From positions 1 to 20,996 of the IMG/VR virus record IMGVR_UViG_3300032311_000248: DNA of 20,996 bases; one strand, given 5' to 3'. This stretch comes from a virus. Below, piece by piece: positions 12,066 to 19,619 of the stretch. The position numbers and the translations under genes are program-made. The notes below the pieces were generated by a model. That model saw nothing but the letters and a program-made list of their open reading frames with translations. It was not told where the DNA came from and made no database searches. Within the stretch, counting starts at the first letter, position 1, and every line of letters starts with the position of its first letter.

Positions 12066-12547
12066 CAGTAGCCTGCTCTTTCCCTTGCTGTAGCGTCGTT
12101 AATAATGCGATGGCGCGTGGGGCGAGTGACATAGGTATTTGCAGGGTCGCCAATTGGGGGCGGTCGTGCACCTCCATTATTTACCTCCTTTATCTTTTCG
12201 TGTGTCCAGTCCGCCACCTTGTACAACTCGTCTTGGGTTGCGTTGGACTTGATCATGTTTGCTCTGTTGCTTAACCACGCTACGTTTCCTTTTACGTATC
12301 CTTTTTCTGGAATAATGCGGTCCAAACTTGGTGAGTCTGGGCCGCTCGATCCCACAGTGCCCGAGTGTCCAAACCCCCAAAGGATCTTGGTCTTAAAGAT
12401 TGGACAATACTCAGGCGCGATTGCACATAGGTACTTGTGATCCAACTCAAATGGGATACCTGCGGCAAGGGCGCGCCTCTTAACGTTAAACATTGTTTTG
12501 GCAATGTGGTTTCGTTTTTTGGCCTCATGAGCTTCGTCGTCTGTCAT
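12065..12547 (-). CDS. HNH/endonuclease VII-like nuclease
   Basis: This 160-residue protein carries the C-terminal signature of phage recombination-endonuclease-VII-like HNH proteins: SPSLDRIIPEKGYVKGNVAW then LSNRANMIKSNAT. The SLDRI block (74-78), N88 and the N94-R95-A96-N97 segment are the conserved positions. C41 and C48 (CAIAPEYC) may bind a structural zinc, though the second CxxC pair of classic endonuclease VII is not obvious. The C-terminal 35 residues are basic and Pro-rich. Such enzymes cut branched DNA or act as homing nucleases. Because it is tightly embedded in the operon, with a 4-base overlap with VRR-NUC and a 1-base overlap with SNF2, a resident replication or packaging nuclease is likelier than a free-standing homing insert. 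Confidence 0.85.
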   Translation of the reverse strand: MTDDEAHEAKKRNHIAKTMFNVKRRALAAGIPFELDHKYLCAIAPEYCPIFKTKILWGFGHSGTVGSSGPDSPSLDRIIPEKGYVKGNVAWLSNRANMIKSNATQDELYKVADWTHEKIKEVNNGGARPPPIGDPANTYVTRPTRHRIINDATARERAGY

Positions 12548-12825
12548 AGTTGGTCAACGAACTCGTCTACTTCTTGCTCGCTCATCAAGACGTGCGTGAA
12601 CACCCCCTGACTCAGAAGCACCTTGTGCATGAACTCCTGCCTTGCGCTTAGTTCTCCCTTGGGGTCCTTCAACTCCACTGGGATTATCTTGCCCTTGTAA
12701 AACACCAGCCTGTCCGGCACCCCCGTCATCGACGGGCTCACCCACTTCAGGCACAGGCCCCCCTTCTCCTTGATCTTTTTGACCAGTCTTTGTTCGATTT
12801 TCTTTTCGTTTTGCAATTTTGGCAA
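12544..12825 (-). CDS. VRR-NUC domain nuclease
   Basis: The 93-residue protein consists of a single VRR-NUC domain of the PD-(D/E)XK superfamily: E11 in the first helix, MTGVPDRLVF with D38, ELK (E51, K53) after a beta strand, and Q63 in the following helix. Stand-alone phage VRR-NUC proteins are believed to resolve branched DNA and usually partner with an SNF2 helicase, as here. The whole gene except its last 10 bases lies inside the open frame of the metalloprotease-like gene in another frame. Its own stop overlaps the HNH start as ATGA. Codon content and conserved motifs show that this is the selected frame in the shared region. Confidence 0.95.
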   Translation of the reverse strand: MPKLQNEKKIEQRLVKKIKEKGGLCLKWVSPSMTGVPDRLVFYKGKIIPVELKDPKGELSARQEFMHKVLLSQGVFTHVLMSEQEVDEFVDQL

Positions 12826-13207
12826 CCTCCACTAAACAGGCTGTAAACATCTGGCGCACCAACCACTCGGTCAAGTACGCCCGCGACTCTTCACCAAAGT
12901 CCTCCACCTCTTCGCCAATGTGCTCTAACACACGCGCCACCACGTGTGTGGCCTCGTGGGCCACCACGCTGGCTAGCAGGGCCGCGTTGTCAACGCACTC
13001 GATCAGGTTGAACACCACGATGACAATAGCCTCTTTGTTTGTAGAGAAGCTGTGTGTCTCCGCAATGCCCAACTCTAACGGTGCCATGTCGGGCTGTGCC
13101 GCTATGCCGTGGTCTCTCAGCACCTTGTAGAACGCCTTGGATGTAAAGCACATCTTTACAGGCACCGGAAAGAAACCGACATCCACATGAAAATATGTAT
13201 CGCTCAA
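12554..13207 (-). CDS. HExxH metalloprotease-like phage protein with out-of-frame tail over VRR-NUC
   Basis: Residues 1-127 resemble a conserved phage protein with a zincin-like signature: FFPVPVKMCFTSKAF near the N-terminus, then ASVVAHEATHVV (H84, E85, H88) and a downstream GEESRAYLTEWL with E106/E107 as possible third ligand. Substrate and role are unknown. The start is TTG, overlapping the primase-helicase stop, with GAGGA 9 bases upstream. Related proteins, from memory, end soon after the Glu helix. Here the frame stays open for 90 more codons, all inside the VRR-NUC gene, giving a Gly/Gln/Arg-rich tail of low complexity. The tail may be real overprinted protein, or the true stop may have been lost by mutation or a base-call error. 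Confidence 0.75.
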   Translation of the reverse strand: MSDTYFHVDVGFFPVPVKMCFTSKAFYKVLRDHGIAAQPDMAPLELGIAETHSFSTNKEAIVIVVFNLIECVDNAALLASVVAHEATHVVARVLEHIGEEVEDFGEESRAYLTEWLVRQMFTACLVEVAKIAKRKENRTKTGQKDQGEGGPVPEVGEPVDDGGAGQAGVLQGQDNPSGVEGPQGRTKRKAGVHAQGASESGGVHARLDERARSRRVR

Positions 13208-15519
13208 AATATATCCTCGCGTTCAAAGTTGCTGATACTGTCCACGTACTTCTGTGCCTTCGGGTTAAGCTTGATGCCAAGGTACACGTTGGCCGACTCA
13301 CCATCAATGCGCACCCTTGTCGCTGTCACGCGGTGATCCTGCGTTGCCGCAAGAAACCTGCGCTTGAACGCCATGTCACTTCCGGGCGGTATGTTTTTGG
13401 CGGTGGCCCACTTGCGCCAACACACGAACACCTCGTCCTTCATAGCCGTGGCCTCTAGGTCGTACACCAACGCGTCTGTGACAAACGACCCAATCGGGTT
13501 GCCTAGCTCCTCCATCAACTCCAGTAACTCGCGCCCTGTTGTTGGTTGTTGGAACCTCTGTCCCTCGCGCGCCATGCGTCGTTGCTGTCCTGCAATAGCC
13601 CAGTTAAAAATAGCAGGCAACTCCTTGGCCAACTTGTCGGCCAACAGCGTGTCCTCTTTGCCATAAAAACTATTGCTCATCTTTAGCACGATCATCCTGC
13701 CCGTCAAAGCGTTGGAGTTTTCCGTCAACTGCAAGGCCTCGTTTGAGTAGATCACGATGCGCGTCGGCAAATAGCCGCTCCAAGCTTCCTTGTTCTTCCT
13801 GTTCACAGTCACAGTATCCCCGCCAACAATCCGGAGCAACTGGCTCACTACAGCGCCCCTGTTGCGCTCCGGTGCGCGTGCGTCCGTGAAACTCGCTAGC
13901 AATTTTCCTAGCCAAGGTTGAAGTCCAAAAGTGTCGCATAGTTCATCCAGTTGTGGCGCCACCGTGTTGTGTTGCCCCAAGAGGCTAACGAGCACCTTGT
14001 TGATCGTTCCCTTACCAGAGCGGCGCGGGCCAATGATGTTAAAGAACTTCTGCTGTGACGAGTCCCCGCTCAGAATGTAGCCGAACATCTCCTGCAGGCA
14101 GTCAACGCTTTGTGGGTCGTCGTGCCATATGTCCTGCAAGAAACGCTCCCACGTTGGGCACGTCGCATCAGGGTCGTACGCAAAGGGCAAACTGTTTTGC
14201 GTGAAGAAACCCAAGCTGTGTGGGATCAGCATGTTTTGCTCTGTGTGAAAGATGCCATTCTCAAGCGACACCAGTTTGCTCGGGTCGGGCCTGTTGCTAC
14301 CGTACCCCTCAAGCCACACCGGTGGTTTGGTGTTGGCCGTGTTGGGCAGGTGCGTCACCGCGTGCACCGCGTCAAGGATCGACGAGACGTGCGCAGGTGT
14401 TGGGTTGAACGGCATCAGGTTCTGCTTCTTGTCGTACTTCTTGCACCGGTCCAAGAACGTGTACAGCATGGAGCGCACCGTCGCCTCTTCAATGTCTTGG
14501 TAGTGCGTGCCCTTGTACTGGAACATGTCACCCGCGTAGGTTGTAAGTGACGTGCCCTCCTCGCACGTGAACTGACTGGCCAAGAACTCTTTAGCGTGGT
14601 TCAGTGGCCCGCCTGTGAGCACCTTCTCACCGTTGGCCACCACCTCGGCCTCCTTGGCCTTGTTAACCTTGAACACCAGTGATCGCAGTGTTGTGCCGCC
14701 ACTGCCACCAAAGCTGTCCCACTTGGCCGCGCACTGACCCGCCGCATAAGACCCGCAGGCCCCGTCGCTGTCAGACCACCGGTCCCACAACTCAAGCGCC
14801 TCGTAGTCGCCACCGAACTGGTGGTGCAGTGCCATGCCCACCGCCAACCACTCTGTGTACCCACAGTCTGGGTCCAGTTGTGTCAGCAGGTCGGTCTCCA
14901 CACGGGCCAAGTCCCACCCGTCAAGTGGTGGGCTGTAGTCCGCAAACGAGTCGCCCGATCGGTAGCTTCTGCGTGCGGGCACGATGTGCTGTAAGTCCTG
15001 CTCCTGATCGGGTATGTTGCCGCCTAACGTGTGGCCTGTCACTGTGAAGTAACGGCCCTTGGGGTAGATCTCTAAACCCTTCTCGTGGTCAACGTGCGCC
15101 GCGTTCAACTGCGCGCGTGTGAATATCTTGATGCCGGTGCCTGAGGGGCTTATTTCTGCGTACCCTAAGACAGCGTCTTTAATGGCCTGCGCTTCAGGCG
15201 TAAGAGACGTTGGGCCCTGAACGGCATCCACGCAGTCGTCCAAGTCAATGCCCATGATACTGTCGCTACCGTCAAAGACAAAACCAACACCGTCGAAACG
15301 ACCTGTTTGATAAGCTTCTTGTGCATGGAGAAAGTCACACCACGTTGTTGGGTTTGTAGAACTTGCTGACGACCCATTTGACTGCAGTGGTAACTTTGAC
15401 CACCGCTTGTTCGACCCTTCCCCAACCTCGACTAACCGCCACAAAACCCAACGGGAGATTTTCTTGAGGCTGATCGGGATATTCTCGAACTGAACTTCTA
15501 GTACTGTTGGCTTGTTCAT
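13204..15519 (-). CDS. Bifunctional AEP primase-polymerase / SF3 helicase
   Basis: This 771-residue replication protein combines three parts. Residues about 1-180 form an archaeo-eukaryotic primase/prim-pol domain with GIDLDD (D92, D94), SPSGTGIKIF (124-133) and EIYPKGRYFTVTG (150-162). Residues about 200-285 resemble a PriCT-2 linker (YTEWLAVGMALHH, ELWDRWS). Residues about 300-771 form a D5/P4-type SF3 helicase with Walker A GPRRSGKGT (497-505), Walker B-like KLLASFTDA (539-547), the sensor-like YSNEALQLTENSNALTGR (591-608) and a C-terminal winged-helix-like region. The AEP motif II residue after GTGI is Lys rather than the more usual His. The protein would unwind the origin and make primers, so it is the probable initiator and replicative helicase. 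AAGG lies 11 bases before the ATG. Confidence 0.94.
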   Translation of the reverse strand: MNKPTVLEVQFENIPISLKKISRWVLWRLVEVGEGSNKRWSKLPLQSNGSSASSTNPTTWCDFLHAQEAYQTGRFDGVGFVFDGSDSIMGIDLDDCVDAVQGPTSLTPEAQAIKDAVLGYAEISPSGTGIKIFTRAQLNAAHVDHEKGLEIYPKGRYFTVTGHTLGGNIPDQEQDLQHIVPARRSYRSGDSFADYSPPLDGWDLARVETDLLTQLDPDCGYTEWLAVGMALHHQFGGDYEALELWDRWSDSDGACGSYAAGQCAAKWDSFGGSGGTTLRSLVFKVNKAKEAEVVANGEKVLTGGPLNHAKEFLASQFTCEEGTSLTTYAGDMFQYKGTHYQDIEEATVRSMLYTFLDRCKKYDKKQNLMPFNPTPAHVSSILDAVHAVTHLPNTANTKPPVWLEGYGSNRPDPSKLVSLENGIFHTEQNMLIPHSLGFFTQNSLPFAYDPDATCPTWERFLQDIWHDDPQSVDCLQEMFGYILSGDSSQQKFFNIIGPRRSGKGTINKVLVSLLGQHNTVAPQLDELCDTFGLQPWLGKLLASFTDARAPERNRGAVVSQLLRIVGGDTVTVNRKNKEAWSGYLPTRIVIYSNEALQLTENSNALTGRMIVLKMSNSFYGKEDTLLADKLAKELPAIFNWAIAGQQRRMAREGQRFQQPTTGRELLELMEELGNPIGSFVTDALVYDLEATAMKDEVFVCWRKWATAKNIPPGSDMAFKRRFLAATQDHRVTATRVRIDGESANVYLGIKLNPKAQKYVDSISNFEREDIF

Positions 15520-15552: not shown

Positions 15553-16314
15553 TCATTTTTTATCTCCATTTTTAAGAAACGTGCCATAGACCCTCGCCAT
15601 TTGAAAGAACAGGCTTTCATCATTCAATGCGTGTGCTTCCTTGGCCAGTGCAAGGGTCACAAAATCTGCAATGACCCGCAAGTTTAACTGGTGCCTTGTC
15701 CACCCCTCTAAGCCCTCTTGGTGTATTGCTTTGCCGTTTCTTGACAGGCTGTCTGTGATAATGTATGCCTCAGGGTTAATTGTTAACCACTCTTTTACGC
15801 ACCTTGCGTCGTCTGATAAGACGGCCGCGTCGGGGTACTGCTCGGCCATTTGCTTTAACTTTTTAAAGTCTGGCGTGCGGTCCGTGCCCCTCAAGTGAAC
15901 TACACGAGGCAGTGGAATTTGTGATATGTCCCGCAAACACTTTATCTCTAGCCTCTTTGCCAGTGTTACCATGCTCCACGTGCGTGGGCCTACACCAGAG
16001 TGAACCCACACGGGGGTATCACCGTCCGCGTCTTCTAGCTGAAACTCCACGTAGTCTTTGATCCTATACACCCAGTCGCCGTTTGGCTTTTCCAGTGCGT
16101 CGTTCCAAAACTCTGGGTACGCTGTGCCCTCAGGCTCGCCCCTTGGAACGCCTCGCACGTCAAAGTACGTGTAAAACCCCGTCTGCCACATTGTGTCGTA
16201 CCAGTCAACGTACAGGTGCCGGTTGTACTTGACGGCCACGTCAATGCAGTACGATAAACACTGGAGCCTGTCCGCAAAACCTTCCCACCCCTTACTGACA
16301 ATTACCTTGCTCAT
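15553..16314 (-). CDS. Fucosyltransferase-like glycosyltransferase (NodZ/GT23-type motif)
   Basis: The 253-residue protein resembles GT-B fucosyltransferases of the GT23/GT11/GT65 group. N-terminal KGWEGFADRLQCLSYC fits the glycine-rich acceptor loop, and VVHLRGTDRTPDF (138-150) carries the HxRxTD motif that binds GDP-sugar phosphates. VLSDD (165-169) and a late ADFVTLALAKEA segment also fit the fold. The protein lacks a signal peptide and is probably cytoplasmic. It sits directly upstream of the primase gene in the replication operon, 33 bases away, and overlaps the gene before it by 4 bases (ATGA). Substrates could be host surface glycans, a phage protein or modified DNA; the sequence does not tell. 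The fold call is moderately sure, the sugar specificity is not. Confidence 0.7.
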   Translation of the reverse strand: MSKVIVSKGWEGFADRLQCLSYCIDVAVKYNRHLYVDWYDTMWQTGFYTYFDVRGVPRGEPEGTAYPEFWNDALEKPNGDWVYRIKDYVEFQLEDADGDTPVWVHSGVGPRTWSMVTLAKRLEIKCLRDISQIPLPRVVHLRGTDRTPDFKKLKQMAEQYPDAAVLSDDARCVKEWLTINPEAYIITDSLSRNGKAIHQEGLEGWTRHQLNLRVIADFVTLALAKEAHALNDESLFFQMARVYGTFLKNGDKK

Positions 16315-16667
16315 TTTTTAATCCCTCGAATGTGGTCTGACGCAACGTCTCTTGCCTGCTTCATCTCCATCAGGCTCATCTCTGTCTCTTTAATCTGCTC
16401 GTCCATCTCATTGACGATGGCCTGTCCGTACTTCTCTGCGGCCTCCTCGGCTGTCAGGTCTTGAAGTGTCGCCTTGTTGAGCACGCTGTCTCTGTCCTCT
16501 ATGCCATGGTACCCGAACTGCACGATGCCCTGCATCTCTAACACAGCGATCACAGCCATGGGCATAATTAGCACGATGGCCAACGCTGTGATGGGGTCCA
16601 AAAAATACGCCGTCACAGACGCCAGTATCGCGCCAAATAAATAGATCGCGTAGATAATTTTCTTCAT
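16311..16667 (-). CDS. Small inner-membrane protein with C-terminal coiled coil
   Basis: No family is recognised. Residues about 4-22 and 26-46 are two hydrophobic helices with a short turn containing Asp-Pro, followed by a cytoplasmic, strongly charged helical region (about 70-115, EMDEQIKETEMSLMEMKQAR) with coiled-coil heptads. The layout resembles small phage membrane proteins that alter host membrane functions, but no specific role is supported. The start and stop each overlap the neighbouring genes by 4 bases. Confidence 0.8.
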   Translation of the reverse strand: MKKIIYAIYLFGAILASVTAYFLDPITALAIVLIMPMAVIAVLEMQGIVQFGYHGIEDRDSVLNKATLQDLTAEEAAEKYGQAIVNEMDEQIKETEMSLMEMKQARDVASDHIRGIKK

Positions 16668-16870
16668 TGGTTTTCCCCGCAGGTTGCTAGTGTGTCGTTG
16701 ACTATCTCGGCAATGTGGCCGAACACGTCCGCCATTGGGGTCTCGTATTTGTAGTGCTGTCGTAACTGCGCCTCAATGTCTAGCAGGGCCATGATGGCCG
16801 TCTGCCCGTGCAGGGCGTACCTCAGTTTGTCCTCGTCTTGTGGGTACTCGAACTCTAGTGTGGCTTTCAT
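16664..16870 (-). CDS. Small conserved phage protein (MKATLEFEYPQ type)
   Basis: This 68-residue protein begins MKATLEFEYPQDEDKLRYAL and continues AIMALLDIEAQLRQHYKYE. It resembles a short protein family common in phage early regions (from memory), with an N-terminal beta strand, a ligand-like acidic stretch and an amphipathic helix. Function is unknown. It overlaps both neighbours by 4 bases. Confidence 0.8.
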   Translation of the reverse strand: MKATLEFEYPQDEDKLRYALHGQTAIMALLDIEAQLRQHYKYETPMADVFGHIAEIVNDTLATCGENQ

Positions 16871-17199
16871 GCTTTGCTCCAGTCGTATCCGTCATCGTCT
16901 TCACCGGCACGTGCTCGGTCTTCAAAGATGTACTTGGGTTGATAATTTTGCGTGTAGTCGACCCACGCCTCCTCGTAACGCATGTATTCCAAATTTGGAA
17001 TAAACAGCGGCGTCAGTCGCCCGTCCTCCTTGACAGACCCCAGACAGCGCGTGGCCGGTGTGCGCGTTGCACGCCAGACCTTACGGGCACGGCGCACACG
17101 TAGCCACGCCTCCCTAACTTCCTCGGTCCATTGGGCCGCCTGTTTGGGGGACAACCGTTTAAGGTTGGCTTCGTATACTTCGCGCTCGTTGTCTGTCAT
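16867..17199 (-). CDS. Hypothetical basic/acidic protein
   Basis: Unrecognised 110-residue protein. I start it at the ATG at 17199 (MTDNEREVYEANL) because AAAGGA lies 7 bases before it and this ATG follows the upstream stop by one base; a longer frame upstream begins inside that gene. The middle is Arg/Trp-rich (WTEEVREAWLRVRRARKVW), which may bind nucleic acid; the end is acidic (EDDDGYDWSKA). No catalytic motif is visible. Confidence 0.75.
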   Translation of the reverse strand: MTDNEREVYEANLKRLSPKQAAQWTEEVREAWLRVRRARKVWRATRTPATRCLGSVKEDGRLTPLFIPNLEYMRYEEAWVDYTQNYQPKYIFEDRARAGEDDDGYDWSKA

Positions 17200-18843: not shown

Positions 18844-19102
18844 TGTCGTCTCCTTCATGTCTGTATTCCATCTCAGCCGCTAGGCTGTTTAGTTGGTCAT
18901 ATGCGTCGGGGTTCCATATTGCGTCGTCTAACGACGGGCCAATAAGGGTTTGGTGTATGGTCCACGTGTCCGCCTCTTGGGTGAACAAGGGCCTCAGGTA
19001 CCGGCCCAACATCGCGTCGTCTACTAATCGGTCGGCTCTCGCCCGCTCCAATTCGTACGACCGCTTGTAGGCCTCCACCAGTTGTATCATTCTGTCAATC
19101 AT
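18827..19102 (-). CDS. Hypothetical protein
   Basis: Unrecognised 91-residue protein. It starts with a helical segment (MIQLVEAYKRSYELERARAD) and has an acidic second half (PSLDDAIWNPDAYDQLNSLA, then EMEYRHEGDD). It overlaps the sigma-factor stop by 8 bases, so the two are co-translated. It might bind the sigma protein, but only the position suggests this. Confidence 0.7.
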   Translation of the reverse strand: MIDRMIQLVEAYKRSYELERARADRLVDDAMLGRYLRPLFTQEADTWTIHQTLIGPSLDDAIWNPDAYDQLNSLAAEMEYRHEGDDSVETS

Positions 19103-19619
19103 GTTCTTCTTCCGTTACTTGGTCTTTCTTGAACGCGTCCAATGAGACCGGTTGTCTCTGGCTCACCACCAGTCTATCACGGACCCTGCTCTCTGTCAGG
19201 CCCGCTATCTTGGCCACCTCTTTGGTCGTTGGCTCCCTGTTGAGCACTTGGGCCAACTCGGTCTCCACCCGCTTGATCTTGCGCAGGTCCTCCTGCACCG
19301 CCACCGGCACGTGGATCATCAGCCCCTTGTTCTCCACCGCCCTGAGCACTTGGCTCTTGATCAGTGTGCGCGCGTAGCTTGCAAACCTTCCCTGCGGTTT
19401 CCACCTGTGCGCCGCCTTCATCAAGGCCATGTAGCCTTCTTGCAGTAGGTCGTCCCGTGTCATGCTCCCCGCCATGTCCCACTGCGGCAACTTCTGCACG
19501 ATGTACACCACCAGCCCCATGTTGGCCTCCACCAAGGCCTCGTGGGCCTCCTCGTCACCCTGCACGATTCTGTGGTGCAGGTCGATCTCCTGCTGTGCCG
19601 TCAGTAGTTTGCGTCTCAT
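19095..19619 (-). CDS. Phage sigma-70 family factor with regions 1.2-3, lacking region 4
   Basis: 174 residues: LTAQQEIDLHHRIVQGDEEA (region 1.2/2.1 start), EALVEANMGLVVYIVQKL (2.1), DDLLQEGYMALMKAAHRW (2.2), GRFASYARTLIKSQVLRAVE (2.3-2.4), IHVPVAVQEDLRKI and a helical region 3 ending LTESRVRDRLVVSQRQPVSL, which corresponds to the start of the 3.2 linker. The protein then stops after a short charged tail, so the -35-binding region 4 is missing. It should still bind core polymerase and a -10 element. A separate region-4-like protein is encoded at 10435-10731. The position early in the operon suits control of middle or late phage genes. Confidence 0.88.
   Translation of the reverse strand: MRRKLLTAQQEIDLHHRIVQGDEEAHEALVEANMGLVVYIVQKLPQWDMAGSMTRDDLLQEGYMALMKAAHRWKPQGRFASYARTLIKSQVLRAVENKGLMIHVPVAVQEDLRKIKRVETELAQVLNREPTTKEVAKIAGLTESRVRDRLVVSQRQPVSLDAFKKDQVTEEEHD

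Follow-up and report, generated by a model that had tools for sequence, protein, structure and literature searches.

Fucosyltransferases of family GT23 are the closest described systems to the phage glycosyltransferase (GT) analysed here. Rhizobial NodZ, an alpha-1,6-fucosyltransferase of this family (PDB 2hhc, 3siw, and 3six), is matched by the profile of the phage family over its full length and gave the best fold match. Both are soluble GT-B enzymes with GFGD and HxR motifs and a GDP-sugar donor site, in the case of the phage enzyme by prediction. They differ in length (253 aa in the phage enzyme vs about 320 aa in NodZ) and in the loop in which the phage enzyme reads HLRGTDR and NodZ has a sequence of its own; structural alignments gave 14–17% identity. 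The setting also differs, a phage cassette in one case and the nod genes in the other. Human FUT8, likewise of GT23, is a further fold match, and its HxR..D(K/R) loop and its TDD segment (SDD in the phage enzyme) can be aligned. However, the phage enzyme lacks the extra N- and C-terminal domains of FUT8 and has Gly in place of the second Arg of an RR pair, and the FUT8 base Glu373 is not conserved.

Phage-encoded NodZ-type fucosyltransferases occur in two cyanophages. S-SCSM1 encodes a NodZ-type gene together with a GDP-mannose 3,5-epimerase (GME) and several glycosyltransferases (PMC9602691), and S-SRM01 also carries a NodZ-type gene (PMC8557907). These proteins were among the best matches in BFVD, with identities of 11–14%. 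Both cyanophages are large and carry a set of wall-glycan genes, which in S-SCSM1 includes GDP-fucose synthesis. In contrast, the gene studied here stands alone within a replication operon, and related operons carry GME or a UDP-xylose synthase only. A published cyanophage gene set already combines a NodZ-type gene with this epimerase; what is new here is the compact subfamily missed by the libraries, its occurrence as a one-gene cassette among replication genes, its fusions, and the minimal operons that include GME.

The alpha- and beta-DNA-glucosyltransferases of T4 are phage GT-B enzymes as well, and their genes are situated in early or replication regions. They fell outside the significant fold matches of the present enzyme, with which no genes for modified-base synthesis were found.

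Gene, family and predicted fold

The gene is part of a stretch of 20,996 nucleotides (IMG/VR record IMGVR_UViG_3300032311_000248), here called the window, from a virus of freshwater bacteria. The first-pass annotation of this DNA had proposed a GT23/NodZ-like GT-B enzyme directly before the primase-helicase on account of the motifs GWEGFADRL and HLRGTDRTPDF. The position 15553–16314 proved right and the gene itself lies on the minus strand: from 16314 to 15553 there is an intact open reading frame of 253 aa with an ATG start, and the plus strand of this segment contains 11 stops. Both motifs are present in the translated ORF, at residues 9–17 and 140–150, respectively. The following features were assigned:

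15553..16314, minus strand: NodZ/FUT8-like GT-B glycosyltransferase gene, 253 aa (ORF, profile, AlphaFold, and Foldseek)
16264..16290, minus strand: N-terminal putative donor-site motif GWEGFADRL, residues 9–17 (conservation in the family alignment; aligned with GFGDCL of NodZ)
15877..15897, minus strand: HLRGTDR motif, residues 140–146 (profile alignment; unbiased conservation test)
15808..15816, minus strand: SDD, residues 167–169, counterpart of the TDD segment of FUT8 (profile alignment and conservation)
15721..15723, minus strand: H198, invariant in 39/39 members of the family alignment and outside every search pattern

Three other contigs encode a protein with 96% identity. The codon differences to these contigs comprise 33 synonymous and 11–12 nonsynonymous exchanges, and this excess of about 3:1 fits purifying selection. 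Because of these contigs, the synonymous excess, and the distant homologs described below, the ORF is more than a chance ORF and can be regarded as a real gene.

Single-sequence searches with the window protein gave no match in Pfam, PHROGs, NCBIfam, PDB sequences, phage records, or plasmids; a weak match was obtained to a human faecal phage record (L085, E 0.1). By tblastn, relatives with identities down to 26–28% were located in numerous further phage contigs as well as six metagenome-assembled genomes (MAGs). Distant homologs were reached with loosened search patterns. An intermediate alignment (A2) was padded with conservative synthetic variants, which served only to loosen these patterns, and all results after this step rest on real sequences. 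Searches with real alignments led to 50 viral loci and 6 MAG loci. An alignment of 39 family members (A4) is the basis of the profile, model, and conservation results.

The A4 profile matched Bradyrhizobium NodZ (2hhc) with an E value of 6e-12 over the full length (profile residues 2–255) and, more weakly, FUT8 (0.03) and plant FUT1 (0.17). Conversely, the Pfam NodZ family (PF05830) matched 16/39 members of A4 (best E value 1.6e-5) and gave no match to the window protein itself. AlphaFold run on A4 produced a model with a pLDDT of 92.2 and a pTM of 0.90; a model calculated from four near-identical sequences only reached a pLDDT of 41 and was left unused. In a Foldseek comparison of the predicted model with the PDB, ranks 1–5 were all NodZ (E 2e-8, probability 1.00), and the 38 PDB folds with E ≤ 0.001 consisted of NodZ, Arabidopsis FUT1 (AtFUT1, GT37), and FUT8. 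A fold search in BFVD gave the fucosyltransferase of cyanophage S-SCSM1 as best match. We also considered POFUT-like protein fucosylation enzymes (POFUT1/2, GT65/GT68) as closest fold; this was rejected as no POFUT occurred among the 38 PDB matches of the predicted model. Since family profile, structure model, and fold search agree, the assignment of the predicted structure to the GT23/NodZ-FUT8-like GT-B class is confirmed. Structure prediction and fold search had been proposed along with the initial reading; they place the protein, with a NodZ-like fold, inside the GT-B enzymes.

In the N-terminal motif G12, D15, and R16 are invariant in 39/39 members of A4. D15 aligns with an Asp of NodZ in the profile alignment. 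In CePOFUT1 the catalytic residue is Asn43 (PMC3180450), and D15 occupies the same motif place when mapped by eye. H140, R142, and R146 align with His363, Arg365, and Lys369 of FUT8, which contact GDP and the sugar (PMC7033129). H140 and R142 are found in 39/39 members and R/K146 in 38/39; D145 and W38 are likewise invariant. The invariance of HLRGTD in A4 was discarded as evidence because 38/39 members match a search pattern containing VHLRGTD. In an unbiased test, loci were fetched by the N-terminal pattern only, and HLRG[T/N/S]D was kept in 40/40 of the loci long enough to show the motif. A loss of the HxRxTD residues, named at the outset as an observation that would speak against the reading, was not found; these residues persist in the homologs. 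Residues 147–149 vary in A4, and no conserved acid at a fixed position matches the base Glu373 of FUT8. As no conserved counterpart was found and the phage family has Gly in place of the second Arg of this RR pair, we only infer from the sequence that the window enzyme is catalytically active.

A slot beside the primase-helicase gene

The GT gene is located upstream of the primase-helicase gene with 33 nt between its stop and the primase-helicase ATG, and its start overlaps an upstream gene for a hydrophobic protein of 118 aa by 4 nt. It runs in the same direction as polymerase, RNR, and helicase genes. The surroundings are as follows:

13204..15519, minus strand: primase-helicase, 771 aa, right neighbour of the slot (PHROG DNA primase, 8.7e-91; Pfam PriCT_2, DUF5906, and D5_N)
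15553..15561, minus strand: right copy of AAAAAATGA with the GT stop (a single copy in GT-less relatives)
16311..16319, minus strand: left copy of AAAAAATGA, where the stop of the upstream gene overlaps the GT start codon (junction compared with the GT-less relatives L008 and L010)
16311..16667, minus strand: gene of the 118-aa hydrophobic protein, left neighbour of the slot (order conserved in relatives)
16664..16870, minus strand: conserved gene, 68 aa; just upstream of it relatives have a second slot, which is empty in the window
16867..17199, minus strand: conserved gene, 110 aa, left border of the second slot (conserved order)

The junction in GT-less relatives reads AAAAAATGATAAACTATTCACC. 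These relatives have a single copy of AAAAAATGA and the window has one before and one after the GT gene, so the insert amounts to 758 bp, bounded by repeats that form translational overlaps. The ATGA stop/start overlap is preserved across the insertion. No RNA structure was supported at the gene junction (z 0.05). Among 27 loci with 95–99% primase identity, gathered by a primase search, the GT gene was present in 3 and absent from 24. Judged from these loci, the gene is an accessory, swappable single-gene cassette in a slot beside the primase gene.

The content of the second slot, which is bordered by the genes of 110 aa and 68 aa, varies among relatives: four carry a GT2 gene there, eight encode a protein whose C-terminal domain is a 2OG-Fe(II) oxygenase, and one encodes a Cupin_8/JmjC protein. 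The GT gene has four carriers, the window plus three relatives; the second slot is visible in three of the four and is empty in each of these. Examples of such hydroxylase-type genes of close relatives are L026:4422-5405 and L019:4273-5421 (Cupin_8/JmjC and 2OG-Fe(II) oxygenase domain, respectively).

Some other genes were noted in passing. The same co-oriented gene run contains a sigma-70-like factor with regions 2 and 3 (19095–19619, minus strand). Two ORFs on the minus strand, 12554–13207 and 12544–12825, overlap in different frames; the shorter one reads by eye like a VRR-NUC-type nuclease and the longer one has a low-complexity C-terminal part. Some primase relatives encode a beta-ketoacyl-synthase-like protein (L067:6865-7992; a cluster of eight loci).

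Relatives and partner genes

In the tree, the window enzyme groups with a homolog (L094) whose gene sits downstream of a terminase gene. The other nine members of this clade lie between terminase and portal genes or are fragments of such an arrangement, and in other lineages the gene belongs to head modules or has DNA polymerase genes nearby. From this tree, the location of the window gene in a replication operon looks derived.

A DxD protein with a match to Nucleotid_trans (PF03407) adjoins the GT gene in several loci. Natural fusions of this PF03407-type DxD domain family to the GT in one ORF were observed in L090:5202-6743 and L118:2428-3855. A second type of partner is a DxD protein with an SVFGDN motif. 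PDB profile searches with both partner families gave no useful match, and for this reason the SVFGDN-type partner is called a glycosyltransferase only tentatively.

GME was detected in 7/50 GT records (E about 1e-94 to plant GME). Its gene is adjacent to the GT gene or one gene off in L091, L120, L099, and L100 and about 6 kb off in the L108 group. UDP-xylose synthase occurs in L097 and L101. Epimerases of PF01370 were present in 9/50 GT records vs 0/46 GT-less primase relatives, which amounts to a trend and does not test for independent events, given that the records differ in length and relatedness.

Five of the homologs from bacterial MAGs form one clade in the tree, and two of them (L138:2034-2861 and L139:7171-8004) have a sulfotransferase gene as neighbour; in L139 a very long repetitive ORF is close by as well. 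Of 301 genomes from the bacterial family to which the Comamonadaceae MAG belongs, 1 had the gene, the one already known, and a broad spread in this family was rejected.

Proposed function and alternatives

We propose, with moderate confidence, that the window enzyme depends on GDP-L-fucose or GDP-L-galactose and transfers the sugar to a glycan, which is probably located on the host surface; donor, acceptor, catalytic activity, and benefit are what we infer here. It would belong to the NodZ/FUT8 (GT23-like) group as a compact and soluble GT-B glycosyltransferase of the inverting type. Homology points to GDP-L-fucose or GDP-L-galactose (6-hydroxy-GDP-L-fucose) as donor, whose pyrophosphate would be held by R142 and R/K146; the acceptor would be a sugar, with one of its hydroxyls receiving the transferred residue. 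The window and a sister contig of 36.5 kb, like all contigs compared here metagenomic fragments, yielded no sugar-nucleotide enzyme such as an epimerase, no GT2, and no partner transferase, so donor and acceptor are probably made by the host. Among acceptors, a host envelope glycan, such as an LPS or capsule precursor, is the most likely; its alteration during infection could stand in the way of superinfection or of adsorption to debris. The cassette entered the slot between the small membrane-protein gene and the primase gene and is translationally coupled at its start. In the window phage, the protein family goes unnoticed by Pfam, PHROGs, and NCBIfam, and the proposal provides it with a likely function.

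The main rival of the proposal is glycosylation of the virion, in which the same enzyme class would extend a short glycan, attached by another transferase, on the phage's own capsid or tail protein. The nearest tree relatives of the window enzyme lie between terminase and portal genes, partner glycosyltransferases adjoin it or are fused to it in relatives, and virion glycosylation is documented as a shield of mycobacteriophages (Freeman 2023, as cited in PMC11652166). The terminase-portal placement of most close relatives fits virion glycosylation as well as it fits our proposal and counts against the latter. In the window lineage, however, the gene is part of a replication operon, no protein-priming partner transferase was found in the window and the 36.5-kb sister contig, and the fold is closest to the sugar-acting enzymes NodZ and FUT8, not to the POFUTs. 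We regard virion glycosylation as rather unlikely here. It appears improbable that the enzyme modifies a cytosolic protein or a small molecule of the host, for instance to block a defence system. Such a role would suit a gene that is accessory, stands alone, and belongs to an early operon, and protein-type hydroxylases (2OG-Fe(II) and JmjC/Cupin_8) are swapped into the neighbouring slot in relatives, suggesting protein modification as a theme of the region; but the sugar-nucleotide enzymes and other glycosyltransferases of related cassettes fit glycan assembly better and no defence link was seen.

Glycosylation of a modified base in the phage DNA, after the manner of the T4 alpha- and beta-glucosyltransferases, had been brought up by the first-pass annotation on the basis of the replication setting, that is, the position just upstream of the primase gene and the co-orientation with polymerase, RNR, and helicase genes. 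This hint was not supported and we consider this role highly improbable. The annotation had suggested looking for a pyrimidine hydroxymethylase or GDP-sugar genes: the latter are present in relatives and were not found in the window and the sister contig, and thymidylate synthase/hydroxymethylase relatives (PF00303) were not found in 10 related, incomplete contigs of up to 68 kb. TET/JBP (PF12851) gave no match in a test run without a positive control. T4 glucosyltransferase is absent from the 38 significant PDB folds, and in BFVD the best match to a DNA glycosyltransferase had an E value of 0.087. Known DNA glucosyltransferases use UDP-glucose, whereas the present family is accompanied by GDP-sugar enzymes; its partner genes encode nucleotide-sugar enzymes and other glycosyltransferases. 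Close relatives are situated in head and packaging modules between terminase and portal, and, as stated above, the replication placement looks derived. Glycan-modifying genes appear to enter replication operons as clean cassettes of a single gene, and proximity to a primase gene is therefore no evidence of DNA modification.

Returning to the host glycan proposal, GDP-L-galactose is a plausible donor, as GME, which makes GDP-L-galactose, is the sole GDP-sugar enzyme found with the family. Tentatively, and as a possibility we hold less firmly than the proposal itself, the phage family could consist of L-galactosyl- (or L-gulosyl-) transferases and not of fucosyltransferases, the solitary window enzyme being a reduced version that takes its donor from the host. 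GDP-L-galactose chemistry, with GME known as the enzyme of the plant vitamin C branch, is thereby hinted at as a recurrent tool of aquatic phages. One three-gene operon with 4-nt overlaps (L175:3303-5766) encodes a DxD protein of the SVFGDN type, the NodZ-like GT, and GME, the last of which matches plant GME with an E value of 2e-101.
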